DNA of 64,000 bases from an uncultured Micrococcaceae bacterium. GTDB taxonomy: Bacteria > Actinomycetota > Actinomycetes > Actinomycetales > Micrococcaceae. Numbering within the stretch: position 1 is the stretch's first letter; every line of letters begins with the position of its first letter. The translations under genes were made by a program, and so were the position numbers. Under the pieces are notes generated by a model. It searched no databases. It was not told the origin of the DNA and was given only the letters and a program-made list of their open reading frames with translations. Below, one piece after another: positions 9,813-32,241 of the stretch. The stretch spans positions 930,001 to 994,000 of the forward strand of contig CANNAD010000001.1 in the NCBI GenBank assembly GCA_947502645.1, read 5' to 3'.

Positions 9813-9943
9813 CGGTCATTGCGCTGTTGCTTCCCGGGAGAGTAGTTTTTCTGGAAATTCTTCCAGCACCCATTGTTTACTAAGTGCACTTATGTTCTTC
9901 TGGGAAAAGTTGCTTCTACTTCTCCTCCTGGAAGGACGCTGGC

Positions 9944-10669
9944 ATGCCCACCCCAGACCAGGGCGTTGACAATCTGGTCCTGAATCATCTGGACTTGGCC
10001 CGCTCAGTAGCCCACTCGTTTTCCGCCAACGGACCGGACGCACCAGACATACTCCAGGTGGCATATTTAGGGCTGGTCAAGGCCAGCCGACGGTACGACG
10101 AGGGCTTCGGTGTTCCATTCCACGCCTACGCAGTTCCTACGATCACCGGCGAAATCAAACGCTATCTACGGGACAGCACGTGGATGGTCCGGCCGCCCCG
10201 TAACCTTCAGGACTTGCGGACAGAGGCAACACGGGCGTCGTCGTCCCTTGCCCAGCAGCTAAGGCGAGAACCATCAGTGGAAGAGCTGGCGGACCATCTT
10301 GGTGCTAACCCTGCAGCCGTCGCGGAAGCGATGAACTGCCAGAGCAGCATGCGACCGGAGTCGCTCGACGGGCCTGCCGGAGATTCCTCGTGGGCTGATC
10401 GCCTCTGTGCCACAAGCGGTTCGATGGAGCACTATGACGAAGTCCTTTCGCTGCGCAGCGCGTTGTACGAACTGTCCGACAGGGAGAAGGACGTGCTGTT
10501 CCGCCGTTTCTACTGCGAAGAGTCCCAGCAGCGGATCGGTGAACGGTTGGGCATGAGCCAGATGCAGGTATCAAGACTGCTGGCACGGACACTGGTGAAG
10601 CTGCAAAAGCTACTCAGCGTTCCGACAGAGCAGGACGCCGCGACAGGGCGCGCCCGCTCCGCCGCCTAG
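9944..10669 (+). CDS. RNA polymerase sigma factor, SigB/SigF/SigG stress family
   Basis: A 241-residue group 3 sigma factor. Region 2 covers about 10-80 (DILQVAYLGLVKASRRYDEGFGVPFHAYA, then ITGEIKRYLRD), region 3 is near 95-130, and region 4 near 178-225 ends in an HTH (QQRIGERLGMSQMQVSRLLARTL). ATG 9944 follows GGAAGGACG. No anti-sigma or anti-anti-sigma gene is adjacent, unlike classical sigB operons. Its TAG overlaps the convergent CDF stop within CTAG. Confidence 0.88.
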   Translation: MPTPDQGVDNLVLNHLDLARSVAHSFSANGPDAPDILQVAYLGLVKASRRYDEGFGVPFHAYAVPTITGEIKRYLRDSTWMVRPPRNLQDLRTEATRASSSLAQQLRREPSVEELADHLGANPAAVAEAMNCQSSMRPESLDGPAGDSSWADRLCATSGSMEHYDEVLSLRSALYELSDREKDVLFRRFYCEESQQRIGERLGMSQMQVSRLLARTLVKLQKLLSVPTEQDAATGRARSAA

Positions 10670-13159: not shown

Positions 13160-13900
13160 TCAGCCCTCAAAGTGTGTGGTCGGGGGTGCCTCGCTCACGC
13201 TCTCAATGAGGGACTGTGCCACAAGGGTGAGCTTCATATTTCGGGCGCTGGACGCCATCTTGAGAATGTTCATTGCCTCATCCTGAGAGCAACGGTTCTG
13301 GCCCATGATAATTCCGGCGGCGAGATCAATCGCCGTACGGCTTTCCATGGCAGTCTGCAGGTGTTGACCTCTTTCGGTGAGCCGCGCGATCCGCACCGCC
13401 ATTCGAAGCGACACGGACGTAGCCCTCGCGAATTCCTCCGCCTCGGCAACAGCCTCTTCGGTAAACGCGTTGGCTTCGGGCGAGTAGAGATCCAGCCCCG
13501 CGTTCGCCTCGCCCTCCAAAATAATCGGGACCCCTATCGCAGAGAGAATTCCGTGCTCCGCAATAGCTTCCCGGTATTCAGGGAACCGCTGTTCCTGACG
13601 GAAATCGGGGATGTAATAGGTCTGCTCCTCGCGGGCTGCACGCAGGCAGGGGCCGTCGTCGTAACCGTGCTGAATTTCATCCAGGGCCTGAGCACGCTCA
13701 CTGCTGCTCGCGACGGTAGCCGCCCGTCGAGGCCGCAACAGGGTGATACCGCAATGCACTTCCCGGCCGGAAGCGGAAAACGTTTCGGCAGACAGCTGTG
13801 CAAGGGCGTCCAGAAAATCGTGGACATCTGAACTGTCGAGCACCATGTTCTGCAGCGTTTCACTCAGCGTCTTGTCCGCGGGGTCAGGGTTACTGGACAT
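13160..13900 (-). CDS. GAF and ANTAR domain antitermination regulator
   Basis: A 246-residue cytoplasmic regulator: an N-terminal GAF sensor (about 20-165, with CGITLLRPRRAATVASSS and DDGPCL) and a C-terminal ANTAR RNA-binding domain (about 175-235: SRTAIDLAAGIIMGQNRCSQDEAMNIL). ANTAR proteins bind paired hexaloop hairpins in nascent RNA to prevent termination. A paralogue sits at 40595-41326. A ribosome site GAAGGGACG precedes the ATG. Confidence 0.9.
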   Translation of the reverse strand: MSSNPDPADKTLSETLQNMVLDSSDVHDFLDALAQLSAETFSASGREVHCGITLLRPRRAATVASSSERAQALDEIQHGYDDGPCLRAAREEQTYYIPDFRQEQRFPEYREAIAEHGILSAIGVPIILEGEANAGLDLYSPEANAFTEEAVAEAEEFARATSVSLRMAVRIARLTERGQHLQTAMESRTAIDLAAGIIMGQNRCSQDEAMNILKMASSARNMKLTLVAQSLIESVSEAPPTTHFEG

Positions 13901-21014: not shown

Positions 21015-21058
21015 AAAGTGCCCTTTTCGAGAGATATATCCCTCGGAAAGGGCACTTT
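21015..21058. repeat. 44-bp near-perfect palindrome
   Basis: AAAGTGCCCTTT at one end is mirrored by AAAGGGCACTTT at the other, and the centre is GATATATC. Only two base pairs are imperfect (one T-G, one A-C), giving an 18-bp-plus stem 15 nt after the CHY gene stop. It can act as a two-way terminator; the high conservation of both arms also fits a dispersed palindromic repeat. No second copy is present in the window. Confidence 0.8.
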
Positions 21059-21279
21059 GCCTCGGGTTTGGGGGCGCCGCACGGAGGGACGGAGAGCAGG
21101 GTGTGGGGAGAGGGCGGTGCGGAGGGGCCGCGCGGAGAGAGAGGGGGAGTGCGCGGCCGGCTAGCGCGCGAGGCCCAGCGGCGGTGCGGTGCGGGGGGAC
21201 GCACCGAGGAAGAGCCACCGAGAAGAAGAAGTTCTCCCGGAAGTGTTTAGCAGGACCGTTTCAGGGGAACAGTGCTGGT
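21059..21279 (+). other. G/A-rich leader before the heptose cluster
   Basis: A 221-nt stretch with extreme purine strand bias on the plus strand. G-tracts at 21099-21101, 21105-21108, 21112-21114 and 21124-21127 could form a G-quadruplex. It presumably contains the cluster promoter and 5' leader. It is open in the gmhB frame, but the encoded Arg/Gly-rich residues do not resemble the family. Confidence 0.45.
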
Positions 21280-21843
21280 ATGGAACGTTCTGCCGGCACG
21301 CACACGCAAGAGTGGGTGCCGCCGCGCGCAATTCTCCTTGACCGCGACGGCACCCTCATCGAAGACGTCCCCTACAACGGGGACCCTGACGAGGTTCAGC
21401 CCCTGCCCGGCGTCGCCCGCGTCCTCAATGAACTACGGGCCATGGGCATCCCGCTCGGGGTTCTCACCAATCAATCCGGCATCGCACGCGGCCATATCAC
21501 CCGCGAGCAGGCCGACGCCGTCAACGCCCGAGTGGATGAGCTCCTCGGCCCGTTTGATGTGTGGGAAGTGTGCCCGCACGGGCCGGACGACGGCTGCGAC
21601 TGCCGTAAACCCGCGCCCGGCATGATTCTCAGCGCGTGCAAGACGCTCGGGCTGAAACCACACGAGGTCGCGTTCATGGGCGATATAGGGAGCGACGTCG
21701 ACGCCGCCCAGGCCGCAGGGGCCACCGGCGTCCTGATTCCAACCCCGGTCACGCTCCAGGAGGAGGTCGACCGCGCGGAATACGTTGCGAAGACCCTGGC
21801 CGACGCCGTCGCCCTCCTCTGGAAAAAGGGGGATACCGCATGA
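21280..21843 (+). CDS. gmhB: D-glycero-D-manno-heptose 1,7-bisphosphate 7-phosphatase (GmhB-like HAD)
   Basis: A 187-residue HAD phosphatase removing the 7-phosphate of heptose bisphosphate. Motifs: LLDRDGTLIED (nucleophile DRD), LTNQSGIARG, the zinc-loop CPHGPDDGCDCRKPAPGM with four Cys/His ligands typical of GmhB and histidinol phosphatase, and GDIGSDVDAA. ATG 21280 has CAGGGGAAC upstream. It is ATGA-coupled to the next glycosyltransferase. Histidinol-phosphate phosphatase is an alternative, but the neighbours favour GmhB. Confidence 0.87.
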   Translation: MERSAGTHTQEWVPPRAILLDRDGTLIEDVPYNGDPDEVQPLPGVARVLNELRAMGIPLGVLTNQSGIARGHITREQADAVNARVDELLGPFDVWEVCPHGPDDGCDCRKPAPGMILSACKTLGLKPHEVAFMGDIGSDVDAAQAAGATGVLIPTPVTLQEEVDRAEYVAKTLADAVALLWKKGDTA

Positions 21844-22931
21844 AACGCGTCCTCGTGGTCCGCCTCGACAGCGTCGGCGACGTACTCCTCGCCGGCCCCG
21901 CCATCCGTGCCGTCAAGGCCGGGATCAACAATGAGCCGAACCACGTCACCCTGCTCTGCGGACGCACGGGATCAGCGGCAGCAGCGCTTCTGCCCGGTGT
22001 TGACCAGACCCTCATCTGGGACAGTCCCTGGATCGTGGACCCGGCACCGCCAGTCACGCAGGAGCACATGAACGTGCTGCAGGACAAGATTTGCGACGCC
22101 GGAATCGACGAAGCGGTCATCCTCACGTCGTTTCACCAATCACCCCTGCCGTTGGCCCTGATTCTGCGGCTCGCCGGAGTTTCACGCATCACTGGTGCGT
22201 CCGTGGATTATGCAGGGTCCCTTCTGGACGTCCGGCTCAAACCCGGTGAAGATTTTCCGGAAGATCAGCCCGAAGCCGAACGGGCCCTGCGCATTGCGGA
22301 CGCGGCCGGGTACCGCCCTGAACCACACGACGAGGGCCGCCTCGCTGTCCACAACCTGCCCGACGTCGGACACCTCACCGCCGCGCCAGGCAGCGAATCC
22401 GGCGAATCAGACCCGTACGTGGTCGTCCACCCCGGTGCAGCGGTGCCTGCCCGGACCTTTCCGCCCCTGCACCATAAGGCAGTGGTGGAACTTCTCATCG
22501 CCGCCGGCTACCGCGTTCTCGTCACCGGAGGACCGGGCGAAAAGGACCTCACGGCCATGGTCGCGGGACCAGACGGCGTCGACCTCGGCGGCCGCACCGA
22601 CCTCGCGGGGCTCGGCAGCATCCTGAAGGGCGCCGCCGCCGTCGTTACCGGGAATACGGGACCCGCCCATCTGGCCGCCGCCGTCGGTACCCCCGTGGTC
22701 TGCCTGTTCGCGCCGGTGGTTCCGGCGATCCGCTGGGCCCCGTACAAGGTGCCGCTGGAACTGCTCGGGAACCAGCACGCGCCATGCCGTGACACGCGTG
22801 CCCGCAACTGCCCCGTCCCGGGCCACCCGTGTCTGTCCAATGTTTCCCCGGAGGAAGTGGTCGACGCCGTCGTCCGGCTGACCTCGGGGGTCCCCTCGCT
22901 GGGTACCCGTAGAAAAGTGAGGAACGCATGA
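21840..22931 (+). CDS. Glycosyltransferase family 9 (heptosyltransferase-like)
   Basis: A 363-residue GT-B enzyme: VLVVRLDSVGDVLLAGPAIR at the N-terminus, donor site VVVHPGAAVPARTFPP, GNTGPAHLAAAVGTPVVCLF and a Cys-containing C-terminal CRDTRARNCPVPGHPC stretch common in GT9. It likely transfers the heptose activated by neighbouring enzymes. It is coupled by 4-nt overlaps at both ends (gmhB and the next transferase). Confidence 0.9.
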   Translation: MKRVLVVRLDSVGDVLLAGPAIRAVKAGINNEPNHVTLLCGRTGSAAAALLPGVDQTLIWDSPWIVDPAPPVTQEHMNVLQDKICDAGIDEAVILTSFHQSPLPLALILRLAGVSRITGASVDYAGSLLDVRLKPGEDFPEDQPEAERALRIADAAGYRPEPHDEGRLAVHNLPDVGHLTAAPGSESGESDPYVVVHPGAAVPARTFPPLHHKAVVELLIAAGYRVLVTGGPGEKDLTAMVAGPDGVDLGGRTDLAGLGSILKGAAAVVTGNTGPAHLAAAVGTPVVCLFAPVVPAIRWAPYKVPLELLGNQHAPCRDTRARNCPVPGHPCLSNVSPEEVVDAVVRLTSGVPSLGTRRKVRNA

Positions 22932-23929
22932 AAATTCTGCTGTGGCATGTTCATGGTGGCTGGACCGATGCTTTTGTGCGCGGGCAGCACCAATATCTGT
23001 TACCGACCACGCCCGACGGCGGCCCGTGGGGGCTTGGGCGGGGCGGCCGGGACTGGCCGTCCAATGCTGTGGAAGTTGCGCCGGGAGACCTTGCGGATCA
23101 CGAGCCTGACATCGTCATCCTGCAACGTCTCGAAGAGTTCGATGAGTGCGAGAGGCTCCTCGGGAAAAAGCCCGGCCGGGACATTCCCGCCGTGTTTTTG
23201 GAGCACAACACCCCGAAGGGGGACGTTCCCAACAGCCATCACCCGTACGCGGACCAGGACGAGATTCCTGTGGTGCACGTGACCCACTTCAACGAGATGA
23301 TGTGGGATTGCGGGTCGGCGGCGACGACGGTCATCGAGCACGGCATCGTGGATCCGGGTTACCTGTATACGGGGGAGCGGGCGCATCTGGGTGTGGTGGT
23401 CAATGAGCCGATCCGGCGGGGTCGTGTGACCGGGACTGATCTGTTGCCTGGTTTTGCCCGCGAAGCGCCCCTCGAGGTCTTCGGGATGGGCACGGAGGGT
23501 CTTGGTCTGGAACTTAAGCTCTCCCCGGAGAGGGTGATGGAACGCGGCGACCTTCCCACCGCACGGCTTCACGCCGAACTGGCCGGATGCCGGGCCTACG
23601 TCCACCCGATGCGCTGGACCTCGCTCGGGCTATCCCTGCTGGAGGCCATGCATCTGGGGATGCCCGTCGTCGTGCTGGGCATGACCGAGGCGTACCGTGC
23701 CATACCGCCAGAAGCCGGCGTTGTCTCCAACGACGTCGAACACTTGCACCAGGCGGCGGCGCGGCTGATCAACGAACCAGCGGAGGCACGCGCCATGGGT
23801 ATGGCGGCGCGGACAGCAGCGCTGGCGCGGTACGGACTGGACGCATTTCTGGAGTCCTGGGACAACACGTTGGAAAGAACTGTTGGGCACACCCGTGTGT
23901 TCGCGGTGCCGGAAAGGAGAACCCGATGA
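22928..23929 (+). CDS. Glycosyltransferase, GT-B fold (GT4-like)
   Basis: A 333-residue protein. The N-lobe starts MKILLWHVHGGWTDAFVRG; the C-lobe has a GT4-like site (YVHPMRWTSLGLSLLEAMHLGMPVVVLGMTEA) with the SLLEAM Glu expected to contact the donor ribose or phosphate. Between the lobes, FLEHNTPKGDVPNSHHP and HVTHFNEMMW are characteristic of a family often linked to GT9 genes. Donor and acceptor unknown; overlaps its neighbours by 4 nt. Confidence 0.84.
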   Translation: MKILLWHVHGGWTDAFVRGQHQYLLPTTPDGGPWGLGRGGRDWPSNAVEVAPGDLADHEPDIVILQRLEEFDECERLLGKKPGRDIPAVFLEHNTPKGDVPNSHHPYADQDEIPVVHVTHFNEMMWDCGSAATTVIEHGIVDPGYLYTGERAHLGVVVNEPIRRGRVTGTDLLPGFAREAPLEVFGMGTEGLGLELKLSPERVMERGDLPTARLHAELAGCRAYVHPMRWTSLGLSLLEAMHLGMPVVVLGMTEAYRAIPPEAGVVSNDVEHLHQAAARLINEPAEARAMGMAARTAALARYGLDAFLESWDNTLERTVGHTRVFAVPERRTR

Positions 23930-25188
23930 AGATTTCCATGATTTCGGAGCACGCCAGCCCGCTGGCCGCGCTGGGAGGAGTGGACGCCGGCGGCCAGAAC
24001 GTTCACGTTGCCGCCCTGTCCACTGCACTCGTCAGGCGGGGCCACGAGGTCACCGTTTATACGCGGCGCGACGACGATCAGCTGCCTGCCCGGGTAGTCA
24101 CTGACGGCGGCGTCGAAGTGGTGCACATCGACGCCGGCCCGCCCAGAAGTGTCCCCAAAGATGAACTCCTGCCGTACATGGACGCCCTCGCTGATGGGGT
24201 GGCCCGTGACTGGGCCGGCGCACCGCCGGATCTGGTGCACGGACATTTCTGGATGTCCGGGCTCGCCGCTCTCAACGCCGCCGCCCAGGCAGCAGCCAGC
24301 GGTTACACGGTGCCCGTGGTACAAACCTTCCACGCCCTCGGCACGGTGAAACGCCGTCATCAGGGAGCCGAGGACACCAGTCCTGCAGCCCGCGCACTGC
24401 TGGAGCCGTCAGTAGGCTGCAACGCGGACCGCATCATTGCGACGTGCACCGACGAGGTCTTTGAGCTCAAGGCGATGGGCGTCTCCGGATCCCGCGTCTC
24501 GGTTGTCCCGTGCGGTGTTGACCTGGACCTCTTCGGTCCTGCCGAGATCAGCCGCGAACCGGGCGGCCCGTTCCGCATCGCCAGCGTTGGGCGGCTCGTG
24601 CCGCGCAAGGGCGTGGAGTTGGTGATCCGCGCCCTGCGAATCCTGAAAGATCAAGGCATTGACGACGTCGAACTCGCCATTGTGGGTGGCGGCGCCGTTG
24701 GTGAGGTGGCAGGGGACCCGGAGGCCGAGCGATTGCTCGAACTGGCCCGCGAACTCGGAGTTGATGGTCAGGTACGCCTGCGTGGTCAGGTTCCGCGAGA
24801 ACGCATGCCGCTGGAAATCTGCCGGGCCGACGCCGTCGTCTGCGCTCCCTGGTATGAACCGTTCGGCATTGTTCCGCTGGAGGCGATGGCGTGCGGGGTG
24901 CCCGTGATCGCGGCCGCTGTGGGCGGACTGATCGACACCGTGGTGGACGGCAGGACGGGCCTGCATGTCCCGCCGCGCGACCCTGAAGCCATCGCCGACG
25001 CCGTCCTGCAGCTGCGGAACAACCCGGAAATGGCGCAGCAGCTCGGCCGCGACGGATTGGTCCGGGTTCGGGGACGTTACTCATGGGACCGGATTGCCGC
25101 AGACAGCGAAAAGGCCTATCAGGCGGCGATCGCCACGGCAGATACGCGCAGGACCAGCCTGCAACGCACAGGAGGGAAAGCATTATGA
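23926..25188 (+). CDS. Glycosyltransferase family 4
   Basis: A 420-residue retaining GT-B enzyme. N-lobe SPLAALGGVDAGGQNVHVAA (sucrose-synthase/MshA-like glycine loop), HGHFWMSG, and C-lobe ASVGRLVPRKGVELVI plus the EPFGIVPLEAMACGVPVI donor motif (EX7E). ATG 23926 follows GGAAAGGAG and overlaps the previous stop. MshA-like architecture suggests a sugar-phosphate or inositol-phosphate acceptor, but this cannot be decided here. Confidence 0.89.
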   Translation: MKISMISEHASPLAALGGVDAGGQNVHVAALSTALVRRGHEVTVYTRRDDDQLPARVVTDGGVEVVHIDAGPPRSVPKDELLPYMDALADGVARDWAGAPPDLVHGHFWMSGLAALNAAAQAAASGYTVPVVQTFHALGTVKRRHQGAEDTSPAARALLEPSVGCNADRIIATCTDEVFELKAMGVSGSRVSVVPCGVDLDLFGPAEISREPGGPFRIASVGRLVPRKGVELVIRALRILKDQGIDDVELAIVGGGAVGEVAGDPEAERLLELARELGVDGQVRLRGQVPRERMPLEICRADAVVCAPWYEPFGIVPLEAMACGVPVIAAAVGGLIDTVVDGRTGLHVPPRDPEAIADAVLQLRNNPEMAQQLGRDGLVRVRGRYSWDRIAADSEKAYQAAIATADTRRTSLQRTGGKAL

Positions 25189-25847
25189 GAACTTTTCCGG
25201 CAACCACCACACCCACGCCGACGCCGGCCGTCCGCAAGGTGCCAAGTCCCCAAGCCACAGCTTCCAGCGCCATTGAAGAGCACCTCCGCAACGTGGCTCC
25301 GGCCGTGGAATCCCTCCGCCGGGAAACCGGGCGGCTCGCGGAATGGGGTGTGGAACTTGCAGAGCGTCTCATGCGCGGGCAGCGGCTCCTCGCGGCCGGG
25401 AACGGCGGATCAGCAGCGGAAGCGCAGCACCTCACAGCAGAATTGGTGGGACGGTTCGACGGCGAACGTGAGCCGTTCTCTGCCATCTCACTTCATGCTG
25501 AAACCTCCGCCGTGACCGCCATCGCCAACGACTACGGTTACGACCAGCTCTTCGCACGGCAAGTCCGGGCCCATGGCCGCCGCGGGGACGTCCTGATCCT
25601 GCTGAGCACCAGCGGCAAGAGCCCGAATCTGCTCAACGCCGTCGAGGCAGCCCGCAGCATCGGTGTCACCAGCTGGGCGTTCACCGGGCCGGCACCAAAC
25701 CCGCTCGCTGATGCGTGCGACGACTTCGTGGCCATCGACTCGAAATCCGCCAACGCACAGGAAGGCCACCAGATCGGCCTGCACGCCCTGTGCCGGGCGT
25801 TCGACGCCGAAGTGTCCCGCCGTCGCTTCGAGGAGGCAACCCAATGA
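25185..25847 (+). CDS. gmhA: Sedoheptulose-7-phosphate isomerase (GmhA-like, SIS domain)
   Basis: First committed step to nucleotide-heptose: converts sedoheptulose 7-phosphate to heptose 7-phosphate. The 220-residue protein has an N-terminal Thr/Pro-rich extension (about 1-27), then the SIS fold with AAGNGGSAAEAQHLTAELVGRF, TAIANDYGY, LSTSGKSPN and a C-terminal EGHQIGLHALCRAF zinc-site segment. GGAGGGAAAG precedes the ATG, which overlaps the GT4 stop. DiaA-like roles are unlikely in this context. Confidence 0.92.
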   Translation: MRTFPATTTPTPTPAVRKVPSPQATASSAIEEHLRNVAPAVESLRRETGRLAEWGVELAERLMRGQRLLAAGNGGSAAEAQHLTAELVGRFDGEREPFSAISLHAETSAVTAIANDYGYDQLFARQVRAHGRRGDVLILLSTSGKSPNLLNAVEAARSIGVTSWAFTGPAPNPLADACDDFVAIDSKSANAQEGHQIGLHALCRAFDAEVSRRRFEEATQ

Positions 25848-27220
25848 ACAAGCTGAAACTCGTCGTTGTGGGGGACGTACTCCTCGACGCGGACCTCAGC
25901 GGCGGAGCGAATCGTCTCTGCCCCGATGCGCCTGTTCCTGTCGTGGACGTGGCGACCGTGTCCCGCCGGGCCGGCGGTGCGGGCCTGGTTGCGTCGATGC
26001 TCGCGAAGGACGGGCACGACGTCGAACTCGTCACCGTCCTCTCCGACGACGACTCGTCCGTCCTGCTGCGTAACGCCCTGGAGGGTATGGCCGTCGTCGC
26101 CGGTCCGTCCGGAGCCCCAACACCGGTCAAAAGCCGTGTCCGCGTGGACAACCAGTCCGTCGTGCGCTTTGACGAGGGCTGCGAAACCCCGCCGGTACCG
26201 GAGGTGACGCAGGACATGCTGCGCGCCCTTGAGCGGGCCGACGCCGTCGTCGTCGCTGATTATGGACGGCGGCTGGCGGAGAATGCTGGACTGCGGAAGG
26301 CACTCACGGAGCTGGCTGGCAGGAGTCCCGTGGTGTGGGATCCACATCCGGCCGGCGCGGACCCCGTGCCCGGGGTAGCTGCCATCACCCCAAACATGTC
26401 CGAAGCCCTGAAAATGTCAGGTAGCACCGGGTCCGGGTCCGGGTTCGAAACCGCTGTTGAAGCCGGAACCACTCTCCGTGAGCGGTGGAACGGGCGCGCC
26501 GTCGTCGTCACGCGCGGTAGTGGCGGCGCTGTGATCCTCACCCGGGACGGTCTGCCGCAGGCTGTTCCGGCGCCGAAAGTCTCCATTGAAGACCCCTGCG
26601 GTGCCGGTGACCGGTTCGCGTCCGCACTCGCGGTGTCATTGGCGCACGGCCACGTCCTGGCCGACGCCGTCGAGGCAGCCGTGGGTGAAGCGGCATCGTT
26701 CCTGGCTGCCGGGGGAGTCGCAGCAATGGCCCGTGAGCCGGAGCCAGCCCAGCTGCCCGGAGCCGGCGTCGACGCCCTGCGTGTGGCCGCTTCCGTTCGG
26801 AGCAGCGGGGGAACACTGGTGGCGACCGGAGGATGCTTCGACCTGCTCCATGCCGGGCATGCGCGCACCCTCGCCGCGGCGCGGAAGCTCGGGGATGCCC
26901 TCATCGTCTGCCTCAATTCCGATGCGTCCGTCCGTCGGCTCAAGGGCGAGCAACGCCCCATCATGGCCGAACAGGACCGGGTGGAACTGCTCCTCGCCCT
27001 CGAATGCGTGGACGCGGTCATGGTTTTCGACGAAGACACCCCAGAATCCGCGCTCGACACCCTTCGCCCGCACATCTGGGTCAAGGGCGGCGACTACACG
27101 GCAGACAGTCTGCCCGAAACAGCACTCCTGAAAACCTGGGGCGGGAAAACCGTCACCGTTCCGTTCTACCCGGCTCGGTCCACGAGCCGGCTTGCCGACG
27201 CCCTTGAACGCGTCGGATAA
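25844..27220 (+). CDS. hldE: Bifunctional heptose 7-P kinase / heptose 1-P nucleotidyltransferase (HldE-like, copy 1)
   Basis: A 458-residue fusion: PfkB kinase domain (about 1-300) with GDVLLDADLSG, RRAGGAG and the anion-hole/catalytic CGAGDRFASAL (D in GAGD), followed by a cytidylyltransferase-like domain (about 325-458) with GGCFDLLHAGHARTL (HxGH), GEQRPIMAEQDR and VKGGDYT. Both active sites look complete. Fusion order equals E. coli HldE. Divergent from the second copy at 30730, which may have another substrate or nucleotide. Confidence 0.9.
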   Translation: MNKLKLVVVGDVLLDADLSGGANRLCPDAPVPVVDVATVSRRAGGAGLVASMLAKDGHDVELVTVLSDDDSSVLLRNALEGMAVVAGPSGAPTPVKSRVRVDNQSVVRFDEGCETPPVPEVTQDMLRALERADAVVVADYGRRLAENAGLRKALTELAGRSPVVWDPHPAGADPVPGVAAITPNMSEALKMSGSTGSGSGFETAVEAGTTLRERWNGRAVVVTRGSGGAVILTRDGLPQAVPAPKVSIEDPCGAGDRFASALAVSLAHGHVLADAVEAAVGEAASFLAAGGVAAMAREPEPAQLPGAGVDALRVAASVRSSGGTLVATGGCFDLLHAGHARTLAAARKLGDALIVCLNSDASVRRLKGEQRPIMAEQDRVELLLALECVDAVMVFDEDTPESALDTLRPHIWVKGGDYTADSLPETALLKTWGGKTVTVPFYPARSTSRLADALERVG

Positions 27221-27265
27221 ATGCCACCGAAGGCATATAGGCCAGTCAACGAAGGGAGACACCCA

Positions 27266-27964
27266 ATGAGCGAAGCAGGAAACCCGGGACGGGTACTGAT
27301 CACCGGCGGAGGATCAGGTCTGGGAGCCGCCGTCGTGCAAGCCGTGATCGCAGCAGGAGGAACACCGTTCGTGCTGGATCGGGACGTCAGCTCCGTCTCC
27401 GGGGCCAAATGCCTCGAAGTGGACGTGGCTAACAGGGCCGCCGTCGAAACGGCAGTCAAATCTGCCGCGGAAACGATGGACGGGCTCGACGCCGTCGTCG
27501 CCGCGGCCGGCATAGACCGTTGCGGGCGGCTCGATGAAGTGCCCGCAGAGGAGTGGGAAAAGGTGCTCGGCGTCAACCTTTTCGGCACCGTCTCGACGGT
27601 CCGTGCCGCGCTGCCCTACCTCATGGAAAGCCACGGACGGGTGGTCACGATCGCGTCCACCTTGGGCATCCGCGCTGTTGGCGACGCGACGGCCTACTGT
27701 GCCTCGAAATTCGGGATCGTCGGGTTCAGTCACTCACTGGCCGCAGAAACGGCAGGCCAGATCGGAGTGACCACGATGATCCCCGGCGGCATGAACACCC
27801 GCTTCTTCGACGACCGTACCGAGCAGTACAAACCTCAGGACGACTCACAACTGAACAGCCCCGACCGGGTGGCAGACGCAATCCTCTTTGCTCTCAACCA
27901 GCCGGCAGGGTGTGAGATCCGCGAAATGCTCATCGCCCATGAAGAAGAAGGCTCGTGGCCATGA
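27266..27964 (+). CDS. Classical short-chain dehydrogenase/reductase
   Basis: A 232-residue NAD(P)-dependent oxidoreductase: GGGSGLGAAVV cofactor loop (TGGGSGLG), AAAGIDRCG, SxT in IASTLGIRA, catalytic YCASK (Y and K) and PGGMNTRFF. It is a classical SDR, not the longer extended SDR epimerase HldD, so it more likely oxidises or reduces a hydroxyl of a sugar intermediate. ATG 27266 follows GAAGGGAG, 45 nt after hldE copy 1. Its 3' end overlaps the convergent GT9 gene by 35 nt. Confidence 0.86.
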   Translation: MSEAGNPGRVLITGGGSGLGAAVVQAVIAAGGTPFVLDRDVSSVSGAKCLEVDVANRAAVETAVKSAAETMDGLDAVVAAAGIDRCGRLDEVPAEEWEKVLGVNLFGTVSTVRAALPYLMESHGRVVTIASTLGIRAVGDATAYCASKFGIVGFSHSLAAETAGQIGVTTMIPGGMNTRFFDDRTEQYKPQDDSQLNSPDRVADAILFALNQPAGCEIREMLIAHEEEGSWP

Positions 27965-29126
27965 GTTCGTTGACGTCCGCATAGACATCCTCGGGCTGGA
28001 TCGCCGCCACCAGCGAATCATCGTGTTCGCAGCGTTCGGCGGTCCAGCCAACCTGTGTCACGTCCCGCCCGCAAACCTGGCAGTTGGTCACCCAGGACAT
28101 GCGGATGCGGTGCAGCATCCGCCCGATCGCGCCGGCGTTGATGACGTTGCCCACCCAGTAAATTCCCACCGTAGGCGTGCCCACTGCCTGGGCGAGATGG
28201 CGCGGCCCGCTGTCATTTCCCACCATGACCGTCGCAGCGTTCAATACGCCCACCAGCTCGCTGAGCGAGAGTTCGCCTGCCACCGAGCGGACGTCGTCGT
28301 GATCAGCCAGACGGACGATTTCCCCGGCAGCTTCGACGTCGGATCCGTCCCCGACAACCACCACCCGGCGGCCGTCCTCCACCGCGCGTCGTGCAACGTC
28401 AGCGAACGACGACGCCGGCCACCTCCGGCGCGGATCCGTGGCACCAGGGTGGATGACCAGCAATTCTCGGTCATTCGGCAGCCAGCGACGGGCGTCCTCG
28501 CGTTCCTGGGCTGTGACCTCTATACGGGGTTCGAGCGTCTGCGGGCTGGCACCGGCGAGCCCGGCAACTTCGAGAAACCGGAACACCTCATGCTGACTGT
28601 AGATATACGGCAGGGTGCGGTCGAGCGGCTCGGCGTCAGGCGTGCGGGTGCCCACCGTGTGCGGGGCCTTGAGACGCAACAGAAAAGGGTTCGAATACCG
28701 CCCGCCGCCGTGAACCTGCACCGCCAGATCGAAAGTACCTGCGAGGCGGTCAAAAAAGCCGTCCACCTCAGCCGCGTCCCTGTGCGCATCACCGGTGGTG
28801 CCTTCGCGGACACCTTCCGCGAACGGCAGGACTTCCACCGCAGCAACATTTCCCGGACGCCCATCAAACAACGCCCTGTGAGCGGGCGTCCCGAGGAGCG
28901 TGATCTTCGCCTCCGGATACGCCGCAGCGAGGGCATCAATCGCAGGCATCGCAAACAGCAGATCACCCAGACCGCCGCCACGCAGAACCGCAATCTTGCG
29001 GACGCCCTCGAACGTCCCCAAAACCGGCCCAACACCGCTGGCGACCGGCCTGCTCCCACCGAAAGCCGCCGTCGTCGTCGGCTGTTCGATCTGGGGTTCG
29101 GGGTGCTGCCCTGACTGCTGCTGCAC
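27930..29126 (-). CDS. Glycosyltransferase family 9, reverse orientation
   Basis: A 398-residue heptosyltransferase-like GT-B protein with a polar N-terminal extension (about 1-40), then KIAVLRGGGLGDLLFAMPAI, LLVIHPGATDPRRRWP and GNDSGPRHLAQAVGTPTVGIYW. GTG 29126 with AAGGAGG upstream. It is the only cluster gene on the minus strand and interrupts the plus-strand run; its C-terminus overlaps the SDR gene tail-to-tail. A Cys-rich C-terminal NCQVCGRDVT segment is notable. Confidence 0.9.
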   Translation of the reverse strand: MQQQSGQHPEPQIEQPTTTAAFGGSRPVASGVGPVLGTFEGVRKIAVLRGGGLGDLLFAMPAIDALAAAYPEAKITLLGTPAHRALFDGRPGNVAAVEVLPFAEGVREGTTGDAHRDAAEVDGFFDRLAGTFDLAVQVHGGGRYSNPFLLRLKAPHTVGTRTPDAEPLDRTLPYIYSQHEVFRFLEVAGLAGASPQTLEPRIEVTAQEREDARRWLPNDRELLVIHPGATDPRRRWPASSFADVARRAVEDGRRVVVVGDGSDVEAAGEIVRLADHDDVRSVAGELSLSELVGVLNAATVMVGNDSGPRHLAQAVGTPTVGIYWVGNVINAGAIGRMLHRIRMSWVTNCQVCGRDVTQVGWTAERCEHDDSLVAAIQPEDVYADVNELMATSLLLHGR

Positions 29127-29308
29127 GCGGCCTCCTTGCCTCTACGTCATTCCTCATCTCTGACCATAAGGGCACTTATGGCTCTGATCCAGTCCGCGAA
29201 TCAATTGGCCCAGCGATGTGTAAAAGACGCTGAGGGTGGGTACAGAACCAGCAACGGACCTGCAGCGCCGCTATAAAGAGCGGCCCACACGACCGGAGGA
29301 GCGCGAAT

Positions 29309-30733
29309 ATGGACAATGCCAGCATCGAAATTACGCCCGAGGAAACCACCTTCACCGTCCTCGACCCGCGCGACGGCAGCGAAGTGGCGACCGTGCAGTC
29401 AGCCAGCCGGGAACAGGTGTCCATCGCACTCTCCCTCGCCCGCTCCGTGCAGGGCGAATGGGCGGCAACCGACCCCGCCAGCCGAGGCACAATGCTGCGC
29501 GACGCCGCTGACCGGCTCCGGAAGAACGCAGACCGGCTTGCGGAACTGAACACCCGCGAAACCGGGAAACCCAAAGACGAAGCACTCGGCGGGATCATGG
29601 CAGGGGTAGCAACACTGGAGCAATACGCCGAACTGGGGCCCACCCATCGCGGTCACAGCCTCCGCGGCTCCGTAATGGCGGCGGACTACACGATTAGCGA
29701 ACCGCGCGGAGTTGCCGTACTCCTCACTCCCTGGAACGACCCCGTGGCCGTCGCCTCAGGGCTGATCGGGGCCGCCCTGGTCACCGGCAACACCGTGGTC
29801 CACAAACCCAGCGAACGGTGCCCCACCCTCGGATCCGCCCTCGGTGAGATCCTCTCGCCAGCGTTTCCCGACGGCGTCTTCACTACCCTCACCGGCGGTC
29901 CGGAAGTTGGCACCATGCTGACCATGGAGGACGGCGTCGATGTCTTCGCCCACGTGGGCTCGAGCGCCACCGGAGGACGGATTGCGCGTGCAGCTGTTCT
30001 GGGCGGCGCCTACGTGATCCGGGAAAACGGCGGAAACGACCCTCTGTTGGTGGACGACGACGTGGACCCAGCCTGGGCCGCAGCGCAAGCCGCCCTCGGT
30101 TCCTTCGCCAACAGCGGCCAGATCTGCACCTCAGTGGAGCGTATATACGTTCACCGGAATATAGCGGAATCCTTCTGCAACGCCCTCGTTGAGGAAGCCC
30201 GCCAGCGTAACCGCGACGGCATAGCCCCACTCGTCGACACCAGGCTCCGCGACTCCGTTCACGAACAGGTAGAGCACGCAGTGCAGGCGGGCGCCCGGCT
30301 GCTTGAAGGAGGCGCCGTGCCGGACGGACGCGGCGCGCACTACCCGGCCACCGTCCTCGCCGACTGCACCTCCAGCATGGAGATCATGACAGAAGAAACC
30401 TTCGGGCCAGTGGCTCCAGTGACCGTCGTCGACAGCTTCGAGGAAGGGCTCGAGCTCGCCGTCGCAGGACGATACGGCCTTGCCGCAACAGTCCTCACCG
30501 CCGGCATCGAACACGCGCACAAGGCCGTCGCCGCACTGCCGGCCGGAACCGTCAAAATCAACGCCGTCTTTGGCGGCGCACCCGGTGGAGCAGCACAACC
30601 CCGCAAGGACAGCGGCCACGGATTCGGTTACGGGCCCGAACTGCTCGACGAGTTCACGCGCGTCAAAGTGGTCCACGTCGGTATCCCCGAAACCCCATCC
30701 GGCCGCCGCGTGGATTCTGGAGAGCAGCCGTGA
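29309..30733 (+). CDS. Aldehyde dehydrogenase
   Basis: A 474-residue NAD(P)-dependent dehydrogenase: LTPWNDPVAVASGLIGAAL, cofactor loop VHKPSERCP, GSSATGG, ENGGNDPLLV and the nucleophile in FANSGQICTSVERI, plus EETFGPVAPV near the C-terminus. GGAGG lies 9 nt before the ATG. It is GTGA-coupled to hldE copy 2, so an aldehyde or lactaldehyde-type sugar intermediate is plausible. The 182-nt gap upstream is a divergent promoter region with the GT9 gene. Confidence 0.91.
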   Translation: MDNASIEITPEETTFTVLDPRDGSEVATVQSASREQVSIALSLARSVQGEWAATDPASRGTMLRDAADRLRKNADRLAELNTRETGKPKDEALGGIMAGVATLEQYAELGPTHRGHSLRGSVMAADYTISEPRGVAVLLTPWNDPVAVASGLIGAALVTGNTVVHKPSERCPTLGSALGEILSPAFPDGVFTTLTGGPEVGTMLTMEDGVDVFAHVGSSATGGRIARAAVLGGAYVIRENGGNDPLLVDDDVDPAWAAAQAALGSFANSGQICTSVERIYVHRNIAESFCNALVEEARQRNRDGIAPLVDTRLRDSVHEQVEHAVQAGARLLEGGAVPDGRGAHYPATVLADCTSSMEIMTEETFGPVAPVTVVDSFEEGLELAVAGRYGLAATVLTAGIEHAHKAVAALPAGTVKINAVFGGAPGGAAQPRKDSGHGFGYGPELLDEFTRVKVVHVGIPETPSGRRVDSGEQP

Positions 30734-32241
30734 AATCTCTCGAAAACGTACGCGGCCTGGCCGACTGGATCCCCGGACGCCTCGCCGACATTGCGCCCAC
30801 CATCACCGTCGTCGGCGACGTCATGCTCGACGGATGGTGGAACGGGACCATCGAACGGCTCTGTCGTGAAGCCCCGGCCCCCGTCGTCGAACTCACCGAG
30901 CAGACCTACGCGCCAGGCGGCGCAGCGAACACCGCCATGAATCTCGCGGCACTGGGTGCGCGAGTCCGGATTGCCGGCCTGATCGGAGCAGACGACGCCG
31001 GAACGCAGTTACGCGAACTCCTCACCGCCGCAGGCGTGGACACCACCCACCTCATCCAGCACCCCGGAGCAAGCACCACCACCAAGAACCGGGTCCTCAG
31101 CGGAGATCAGATGATGCTCCGGCTGGACAGTGCGGCAGCCAAACCAACGGCCGAGGCGCTCCAGGCACTCGCCCAAGCCGTGCCCGCCGCGCTCTCCGAC
31201 AGCGCCGCCGTCGTCATCTGCGATTACAGTTCCGGCGGCCTCACCGGAGCGGTGCGCGAAGCACTTCTGGCGGAATCTCCACACGGCGTCATCGTTGACG
31301 CGCACGACCCCGCTCCCTGGGCCGCACTGAAGCCGGACGTCGCCACGCCCAACGCCGCCGAGGCCGCACAACTGCTCGGCCTCAAATGGGACACTTCCAC
31401 CAGCCGCGTAGCGCAAGTGCAGGAACATACTGATCAGCTCCTGGAACTTACCGGCGCCCGCGCCGTCGTCGTGACCCTGGACTGCGACGGCACCGTGCTC
31501 CTCACACCCGGAGACAGAGGCCACCGCACCTGGGCGCAGCCCGCCACCGAAAAGCAGGCCTCCGGTGCCGGCGACACCTTCGTGGCGTGCCTGACCCTGG
31601 CCCACGCCGCAGGATTGCCGCTGGCCACCGCTCAGGACCTCGCCCAGACCGCAGCTGACGTCGTCGTGCGCCGCAAGGGAACATCCGTATGTTCCACCGC
31701 GGATCTCGCCAAATACCTGGGGCATTTCCCGGACACCATGCTCGACGCAACCACCCTGGCGTCACTGATCGACAAGGAACGCGACGCCGGTAAACGCATT
31801 GTGCTGACCAACGGCTGCTTCGACGTCCTTCACCGAGGACACACCCGGTACCTCAACCAGGCCAAGGAGCTCGGCGACATCCTGGTGGTTGCCCTCAACG
31901 ACGACGCCTCAACCCGACGCCTCAAAGGCCCCGACAGGCCCATCAACCCCCTCAACGACAGAGCCGGGGTCATTGCCGCGCTGAGCTGCGTCGACTATGT
32001 GACGTCATTCGGCACCGACAATCCCATCCCGCTCATTGACTCACTGCAACCGGACATCTACGCCAAGGGCGGGGACTACTCCACGGAAATGCTCGACGAA
32101 ACGCAGGCAGTGGAAGCCCACGGTGGCACGGTCAGGATCCTCGACTACGTGGCTGACCACTCCACGACCGCCGTCGTGGAAAAAATCCAGACCCAGACAT
32201 CCGTCCACAACAGCACTGAAAGAGAGGCAGGAGTATCGTGA
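30730..32241 (+). CDS. hldE: Bifunctional heptose 7-P kinase / heptose 1-P adenylyltransferase (HldE-like, copy 2)
   Basis: A 503-residue fusion with PfkB domain (about 20-325: GDVMLDGWWNG, APGGAANTAMNLAALGA, NRVLSGDQMMLRLD, SGAGDTFVACL) and nucleotidyltransferase domain (about 355-490: NGCFDVLHRGHTRYLNQA, GPDRPINPLNDR, YAKGGDYS). It matches classical HldE better than copy 1, for example in GDQQ-type GDQM and GAGDTF. GTG start overlaps the aldehyde dehydrogenase stop. Last full gene of the cluster. Confidence 0.92.
   Translation: MKSLENVRGLADWIPGRLADIAPTITVVGDVMLDGWWNGTIERLCREAPAPVVELTEQTYAPGGAANTAMNLAALGARVRIAGLIGADDAGTQLRELLTAAGVDTTHLIQHPGASTTTKNRVLSGDQMMLRLDSAAAKPTAEALQALAQAVPAALSDSAAVVICDYSSGGLTGAVREALLAESPHGVIVDAHDPAPWAALKPDVATPNAAEAAQLLGLKWDTSTSRVAQVQEHTDQLLELTGARAVVVTLDCDGTVLLTPGDRGHRTWAQPATEKQASGAGDTFVACLTLAHAAGLPLATAQDLAQTAADVVVRRKGTSVCSTADLAKYLGHFPDTMLDATTLASLIDKERDAGKRIVLTNGCFDVLHRGHTRYLNQAKELGDILVVALNDDASTRRLKGPDRPINPLNDRAGVIAALSCVDYVTSFGTDNPIPLIDSLQPDIYAKGGDYSTEMLDETQAVEAHGGTVRILDYVADHSTTAVVEKIQTQTSVHNSTEREAGVS

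Follow-up and report, generated by a model that had tools for sequence, protein, structure and literature searches.

A predicted NDP-heptose glycan cluster of the Streptomyces cwg type with SigB-type promoters in an uncultured Micrococcaceae bacterium

We analysed a stretch of 64,000 nucleotides, hereafter the window, from an uncultured Micrococcaceae bacterium (contig CANNAD010000001.1, positions 930,001 to 994,000), which carries between positions 21280 and 32241 a cluster of genes predicted to synthesize and transfer a nucleotide-activated heptose. The core of the cluster lies on the plus strand and comprises, in this order, a GmhB-like HAD phosphatase (heptose 1,7-bisphosphate 7-phosphatase, 21280-21843), GT9a, a glycosyltransferase (GT) of the heptosyltransferase family (PF01075, 21840-22931), GT4a, a divergent GT4 glycosyltransferase which serves as the marker gene of the cluster (22928-23929), GT4b, an MshA-like GT4 glycosyltransferase (23926-25188; TIGR03449 at 249.6 bits, under its cut-off of 462.5), a GmhA-like SIS protein (sedoheptulose 7-phosphate isomerase, 25185-25847) and HldE1, a fusion of kinase and nucleotidyltransferase (25844-27220) with a GGAGL kinase motif and an RSTS motif. 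There follow a classical SDR oxidoreductase (PF00106, about 27266-27964, plus strand) and an accessory module made of the antisense GT9b (PF01075, 27930-29126, minus strand), an aldehyde dehydrogenase (ALDH; PF00171, 29309-30733, plus strand) and HldE2, an HldE fusion of the canonical type with the GGAAN kinase motif (30730-32241, plus strand). A first-pass annotation, made from the letters of the window, had already described GmhB, GmhA, two HldE fusions and glycosyltransferases joined by 4-nt overlaps, and open reading frames (ORFs), Pfam and NCBIfam bear it out: the assignments of GmhB, GmhA and both HldEs rest on these profiles (with structure-database matches for GmhB, GmhA and HldE1), that of GT4a on Pfam and an AlphaFold2 model. 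Start and stop codons were verified at six overlaps, i.e. GmhB/GT9a, GT9a/GT4a, GT4a/GT4b, GT4b/GmhA, GmhA/HldE1 and ALDH/HldE2.

Other features belong to the picture. GT9x, another glycosyltransferase of the heptosyltransferase family (PF01075, 12217-13170, minus strand), is a detached member: the suggestion that this fifth GT takes part in the pathway is upheld, because it adjoins GmhB in many relatives, being elsewhere downstream of HldE1/SDR. Ahead of GmhB stands a SigB-type promoter, GTTTAG-N14-GGGAAC (21245-21270, plus strand), which ends 9 nt 5' of the ATG, and ahead of ALDH a variant, GTGTAA-N14-GGGTAC (29218-29243, plus strand). Finally, a SigB/SigF-type alternative sigma factor of 261 aa (Pfam Sigma70 r2, r3 and r4) is encoded at 9884-10669 on the plus strand, 11 kb upstream of the cluster. 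The SDR, the ALDH, these promoters, the nearby sigma gene and the consistent difference between HldE1 and HldE2 described below were absent from the first-pass annotation. The GC content, measured in 2-kb windows, is 0.64-0.675 across the cluster, above most of the 64-kb window.

Among the pathway domains, the nucleotidyltransferase of the HldE fusions is the only one reaching a curated cut-off (TIGR02199, 181.5 bits): HldE2 scored 191.5 and 194.8 bits in two profile searches, and HldE1 181.2 bits—just under—in one and 183 in another. With respect to solved structures, the best match of GmhA is phosphoheptose isomerase 1 (1tk9, E 1e-36) and that of GmhB the D,D-heptose 1,7-bisphosphate phosphatase 2gmw (E 2.4e-23), in alignment with which the HAD motifs and CxH...CxC are retained; HldE1 matches D-beta-D-heptose 7-phosphate kinase and cytidylyltransferase-type domains. 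No HldD epimerase over the cut-off is found in the genome of 2.67 Mb (best 96.5 bits for a cut-off of 274.6), so that D-glycero-D-manno-heptose is the expected form; the SDR, once considered for the role of HldD, was ruled out, being of classical type. The enzymes suggest heptose as the sugar of the cluster, and the complete route to activated D-glycero-D-manno-heptose announced by the first-pass annotation is indeed what GmhA, HldE and GmhB, together with the GT9s, would predict. Lipopolysaccharide (LPS) is not expected in Micrococcaceae. The cluster resembles the ADP-heptose pathway of Gram-negative bacteria by its GmhA, HldE and GmhB families and its GT9 transferases; it differs from the LPS pathway by the lack of HldD over the cut-off, by cluster GTs which stay under the cut-offs of the heptosyltransferase I, II and III models, and by the presence of two HldE types.

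These two types are distinguished across genomes, when each copy is sorted by its best match to the two proteins of the window. HldE1 carries GGAGL in 83/90 copies and an R preceding ST in 84/90. HldE2 carries GGAAN in 61/62 copies, which we take to be the form of E. coli HldE also, and H, R or Q precedes ST in 56/62 (26, 22 and 8 respectively). In the window, HldE1 displays FYPARSTS, in which, relative to the motif (F/L)xxGxSTT, the G and the last T are not retained and an R is present ahead of ST. An arginine at position 5 of that motif is a reported mark of nucleotidyltransferases promiscuous for nucleoside triphosphates, the STTR5-type (available text of PMC11461863). Our working guess is that HldE1, with arginine before STT, and the canonical HldE2 might supply two heptose nucleotides or take two forms of the substrate.

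Related as well as distant genomes contain the gene set again, in many cases with its order kept, and on this sequence evidence it is not a chance assembly. The GT4a scan gave at least 579 confirmed matches, the best 80 of which all come from records with actinobacterial names. To these 80 we added 18 further loci, four plasmid loci and the window; in the resulting 103 sequences—selected by GT4a or HldE and sometimes short, so that the counts are not prevalences—GT4b was found in 98, GT4a and GmhA in 96 each, GT9a and HldE1 in 94 each and GmhB in 92, then SDR in 90, GT9x in 73, HldE2 in 64, the SigB/F-type sigma gene in 60 (window counted), ALDH in 59 and GT9b in 53. Within the family, the search for the same genes proposed by the first-pass annotation was rewarded: a strong match (>150 bits) to the nucleotidyltransferase domain of HldE was obtained in 10 of 36 other genomes, including one with a decayed locus, and the cluster is therefore patchy. 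In that locus (L049, genome G007) GT4b is accompanied by no more than fragments of HldE1 and GT9x, and in another relative (L040, genome G031) several genes are split between pieces.

At the level of the phylum, GT4a is present in 24 of 198 evenly drawn genomes of Actinomycetota (own genome counted). We fetched 19 of these 24 loci, four genomes (G000, G010, G037, G052) having been examined earlier and a contig-end fragment (G074) being excluded. GT9a, GT4b and HldE are in all 19, GmhB in 18—the missing case, L162, begins inside GT9a—and a GmhA match in 16. The order GmhB-GT9a-GT4a-GT4b-(GmhA)-HldE is that of 12 loci and the seven others (L147-L150, L162, L163 and L165) are rearranged; it is also kept in relatives among Micrococcales. 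L163 and L165 have an HldE2-like gene and no match to HldE1, L163 having also ALDH and GT9b, which hints that the accessory module is old. The rarity implied by the first-pass annotation does not agree with this spread, nor with the homology of the cluster to cwg of Streptomyces.

The cwg operon is the closest known system: it has 12 genes, is controlled by sigmaE, has induction by vancomycin as a further mark of its kind and is assigned to a "putative cell wall glycan"; in S. coelicolor it is SCO6179-6190, cwgA-L. In the available text of PMC5839063, cwgH is a phosphoheptose isomerase, cwgI a bifunctional synthase/transferase, cwgB, C, E, G and J are transferases and cwgD is a dehydratase; cwgE is labelled putative heptosyl transferase in that of PMC5882110. 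As in cwg, GmhA of the window (cwgH) is immediately 5' of an HldE fusion (cwgI) with transferases on either side, and the cwg-type order HAD, GT9, GT4, GT4, GmhA, HldE, GT9 is found again, the last GT9 being the detached GT9x in the position of cwgJ. The gene-by-gene homology, from GmhB to GT9x, runs via loci of Streptomycetaceae, the S. coelicolor sequence itself not having been compared directly. An annotated Streptomyces plasmid bears 12 consecutive genes—epimerase, carbamoyltransferase, GT, HAD, GT9, GT4a, GT4b, SIS, HldE, GT9, GT, GT—which agree with seven of eight cwg labels, the mismatch being the "dehydratase" cwgD, whose place on the plasmid is taken by a HAD hydrolase. From homologous loci of this kind we infer that cwgA is the epimerase and cwgB the carbamoyltransferase.

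An HldE1 relative (E 1e-30) occurs in 22 of 81 Streptomycetaceae genomes. Of 18 loci fetched from these 22, 15 hold carbamoyltransferase, GmhB, GT9a, GT4a, GT4b, GmhA and HldE1 together, with GT9x in 14 and the epimerase in 14; in L180 and L187 GmhA-HldE comes without match to the cluster GTs, perhaps as another heptose pathway. In one locus (L183) the published sigmaE promoter of cwg is present with 2 mismatches over 27 (best of one shuffled locus: 10), 148 bp 5' of one of the in-frame starts of the first gene—other starts give 85, 163 or 178, among others—for a published distance of 147. L186 has a weaker match with 6 mismatches. A general sigmaE pattern, which misses the L183 promoter (recognised through its close likeness to cwg), was found at 0/12 epimerase, 0/16 carbamoyltransferase and 2/14 GmhB genes of these loci (0.36 expected).

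The cluster of the window differs from cwg: the epimerase, carbamoyltransferase and GT2 genes are lacking (no carbamoyltransferase C-terminal domain is found in the own genome), SDR, ALDH, GT9b and a second HldE are added, and the promoters are SigB-type where that of cwg is sigmaE-type. A GT2 gene (PF00535, e.g. L123:19703-20584) is recurrent in 18 loci, in several layouts 3' of HldE2; it was not seen adjoining HldE2 in the window. On sequence grounds, we thus assign the core of the window cluster to the cwg kind and regard its accessory genes and its regulation as those of a variant.

Both window promoters resemble the promoters of SigB homologues tabulated in the accessible part of PMC8346170, which gives GTTTAA-N12-14-GGG(A/T)A(A/T) as the SigB consensus of B. 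subtilis and spacers of 12-15 nt in S. coelicolor. We searched upstream regions with a strict pattern, GTTT-N15-17-GGG(A/T)A, and a wider one admitting GTGT, expected counts being drawn from 30 first-order Markov shuffles. The strict pattern precedes GmhB in 63/92 sequences (window counted) for 0.3 expected. By contrast with this first gene, it is absent from the internal genes GT9a (0/91-92), GT4a (0/96) and HldE1 (0/92); elsewhere it was found at 1/98 GT4b, 4/53 GT9b and 1/63 HldE2 genes and, in wider windows, at 32/725 neighbouring ORFs outside the cluster. Ahead of ALDH the strict pattern gave 0/55 and the wider one 27/55 (0.4 expected); the latter also gave 13/53 at GT9b and 13/63 at HldE2. 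Among relatives the hexamers are fixed and the sequence of the spacer varies. Genera with a match 5' of GmhB are, among others, Arthrobacter (29/32), Pseudarthrobacter (6/6), Paenarthrobacter (5/5), Micromonospora (8/8) and Clavibacter (3/3). In four loci of one other family (f22), where GT4a and GmhB are separated, a similar promoter precedes GT4a in 4/4 with a loosened -10, three being GGGTA. Two other scans were negative: in the window, GNTT-N14-18-GGGTA had no match (6.7 in shuffles), and a scan for Sigma-70 promoters found none.

As for the sigma gene, it is the best match of the genome to TIGR02980 (SigBFG), with 217 bits against 130 for the next one, the curated cut-off of 234.35 not being reached. 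Predicted SigB-type regulation would be a new aspect of the cluster: no description of the cluster outside Streptomyces or of its SigB-type promoters turned up in a literature search that left subscription journals mostly uncovered, nor did any published SigB/SigF general-stress regulon of Actinobacteria containing the cluster, supplementary tables being outside that search. Three publications considered as expression evidence were set aside. In the available text of the polyethylene glycol study of Arthrobacter sp. Helios, only "sigma factor" is mentioned among the terms sought; in those on desiccation of Curtobacterium aetherium (glycosyltransferases and 6-phospho-3-hexuloisomerase up) and on salt in Frankia (ADP-heptose:LPS heptosyltransferase and a SigF-domain sigma factor up), the changes are not attributable to the cluster.

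Gene content, conservation, promoter motifs, the sigma gene and the cwg homology are all apparent in the sequences, and from the promoters we infer induction by stress. We consider it rather probable that the host and many related lineages, Streptomycetaceae not included, have a cwg-type NDP-heptose (nucleoside diphosphate heptose) glycan operon under general-stress control. GmhA, the HldE fusions and GmhB would convert sedoheptulose 7-phosphate into NDP-D-glycero-beta-D-manno-heptose, from which, with other sugars, the GT9 and GT4 enzymes would build a heptose-containing oligosaccharide; the product would most likely belong to an envelope glycan or glycolipid. Transcription would start from the SigB-type promoters 5' of GmhB and 5' of ALDH-HldE2, both probably driven by the sigma factor encoded nearby, and this position of the promoters suggests that synthesis of the glycan is part of the general stress response, as under osmotic stress, on drying or in stationary phase.

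Several observations nevertheless weigh against this proposal. On the enzyme side, neither GmhA, GmhB nor the two HldE kinase domains reach the curated cut-off of even their best heptose-specific model, though these models are still the top-scoring pathway matches of the proteins; in HldE1 of the window the asparagine of the GGxxN kinase motif is missing, and this enzyme may therefore have a different substrate. On the promoter side, no match is found 5' of GmhB in Curtobacterium (0/5), Pseudonocardia (0/3), Amnibacterium (0/2), Sinomonas (0/2, which carries a GGGCAC variant) and others, in the phylum-sample loci, or in Streptomycetaceae (0/14 at GmhB, 0/16 at carbamoyltransferase; the one epimerase match, in L177, is spurious and due to truncation of the gene at the end of the locus); the predicted stress control is therefore lineage-limited. 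Besides, the bare strict motif is not rare, with 22 sites in the own genome for 12 with a reversed control; the patterns were written after the two window sites and the published table had been seen, and the ALDH signal requires the wider one; the genomes behind the promoter and adjacency counts are related and not independent. Lastly, neither flippase, ABC exporter, polymerase nor wall ligase is encoded within the cluster according to ORFs and Pfam.

This last point divides one claim of the first-pass annotation: a heptosylated product stands as a prediction, and its placing as a "surface glycan or secreted metabolite" goes beyond what the sequence shows. Since exporter, polymerase and ligase are all missing from the cluster, a soluble glycoside or a glycolipid of the inner face stays in contention. 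The product could be cytoplasmic or on the inner face of the membrane, i.e. a heptosylated compatible solute or glycolipid against drying or salt and not a wall glycan, a reading that we find possible, if rather unlikely. It would fit the SigB-type control and the cluster enzymes, which are of soluble types and include neither a transporter nor an undecaprenyl-phosphate transferase, a polymerase or a ligase; no such export or assembly family appeared either among the recurrent families checked by Pfam, except MFS in 5 Micromonospora loci only. Stress-type genes also neighbour the homologous clusters on annotated plasmids: CsbD, STAS, PP2C and GAF-ANTAR genes in Streptomyces, and CsbD, Mn-catalase and hemerythrin genes near GT4a in Paraburkholderia. 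The AlphaFold2 model of GT4a (pLDDT 89.6, pTM 0.86) has the fold of GT-B enzymes, among them BshA, PimB' and TarM (TM 0.55-0.72 by query length, 11-19% identity in the 50 rows listed), and resembles the methylmannose polysaccharide mannosyltransferase, which is consistent with a cytoplasmic product; such a predicted model defines the fold, not the sugar. On the other hand, export genes may be located elsewhere, only part of the recurrent neighbour families having been identified, and the homologous operon of S. coelicolor is under sigmaE, an envelope-stress sigma factor, which points to the wall.

That the enzymes use another sugar phosphate and form no heptose is quite improbable: the missed cut-offs and the GGAGL of HldE1 in place of GGAAN speak for it, but three activities co-occur with GT9 transferases, the best solved relatives of GmhA are phosphoheptose isomerases and both HldE nucleotidyltransferase domains exceed the curated cut-off in one profile search. 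The chance of a secreted, septacidin-like secondary metabolite is slighter still, for although septacidin, a heptose antibiotic, is named for Streptomyces (PMC11461863, available text) and the GT4a core is missing from 3/18 Streptomycetaceae loci that have GmhA-HldE (L180, L185, L187), conservation of the set extends over the phylum, small genomes included, and no recurrent synthase or self-resistance family was noticed alongside it.

Beyond the favoured stress-controlled, cwg-type operon, we advance a broader scheme only tentatively, as one with less than an even chance: a stress-response heptose glycan would be conserved throughout the Actinomycetota and partly common to Burkholderiales, its regulation having been swapped between sigmaE (Streptomyces cwg) and a SigB/F-type factor (Micrococcaceae, part of Microbacteriaceae, Micromonospora and one further family), and the two HldE types would provide different heptose nucleotides for a single product. 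The spread of the core over the phylum, the many SigB-type promoters and the recognisable heptose pathway make a stress-linked heptose directly testable. As NDP-heptoses are sensed by mammalian ALPK1 (available text of PMC11461863), cluster-bearing Actinobacteria might be unnoticed sources of these molecules.

In Burkholderiales, relatives of GT4a (33-36% identity) are found in 10 records of large plasmids. Three of these regions are like the window in having a run with a HAD-IIIA phosphatase, two GT9 and GT4a, and also hold a carbamoyltransferase, one of them with CsbD, catalase and hemerythrin genes in the vicinity; unlike the window, their hosts are Gram-negative, and GmhA/HldE are not listed beside GT4a in the three regions, whose gene table is incomplete. 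A plasmid or phage origin of the window cluster was not retained, with no near DNA match among plasmids and GT4a absent from the phages searched. A link with teichulosonic acid, regarded at first as tied to heptose genes, was also dropped, since PMC13011467 puts that cluster at SCO4873-4882.

Two minor features remain to be mentioned. A GAF-ANTAR regulator gene (13160-13900) adjoins GT9x and has a homologue in 11/103 sequences (window counted); GAF-ANTAR genes also flank the cluster on a Streptomyces plasmid. The sequence AAGTGCCCTT makes up an inverted repeat 5' of the GmhB promoter (21016-21057) and is present once again 5' of ALDH/GT9b (29168-29177); the exact long repeat occurs once in the own genome, and could be a terminator, an operator or the product of chance.

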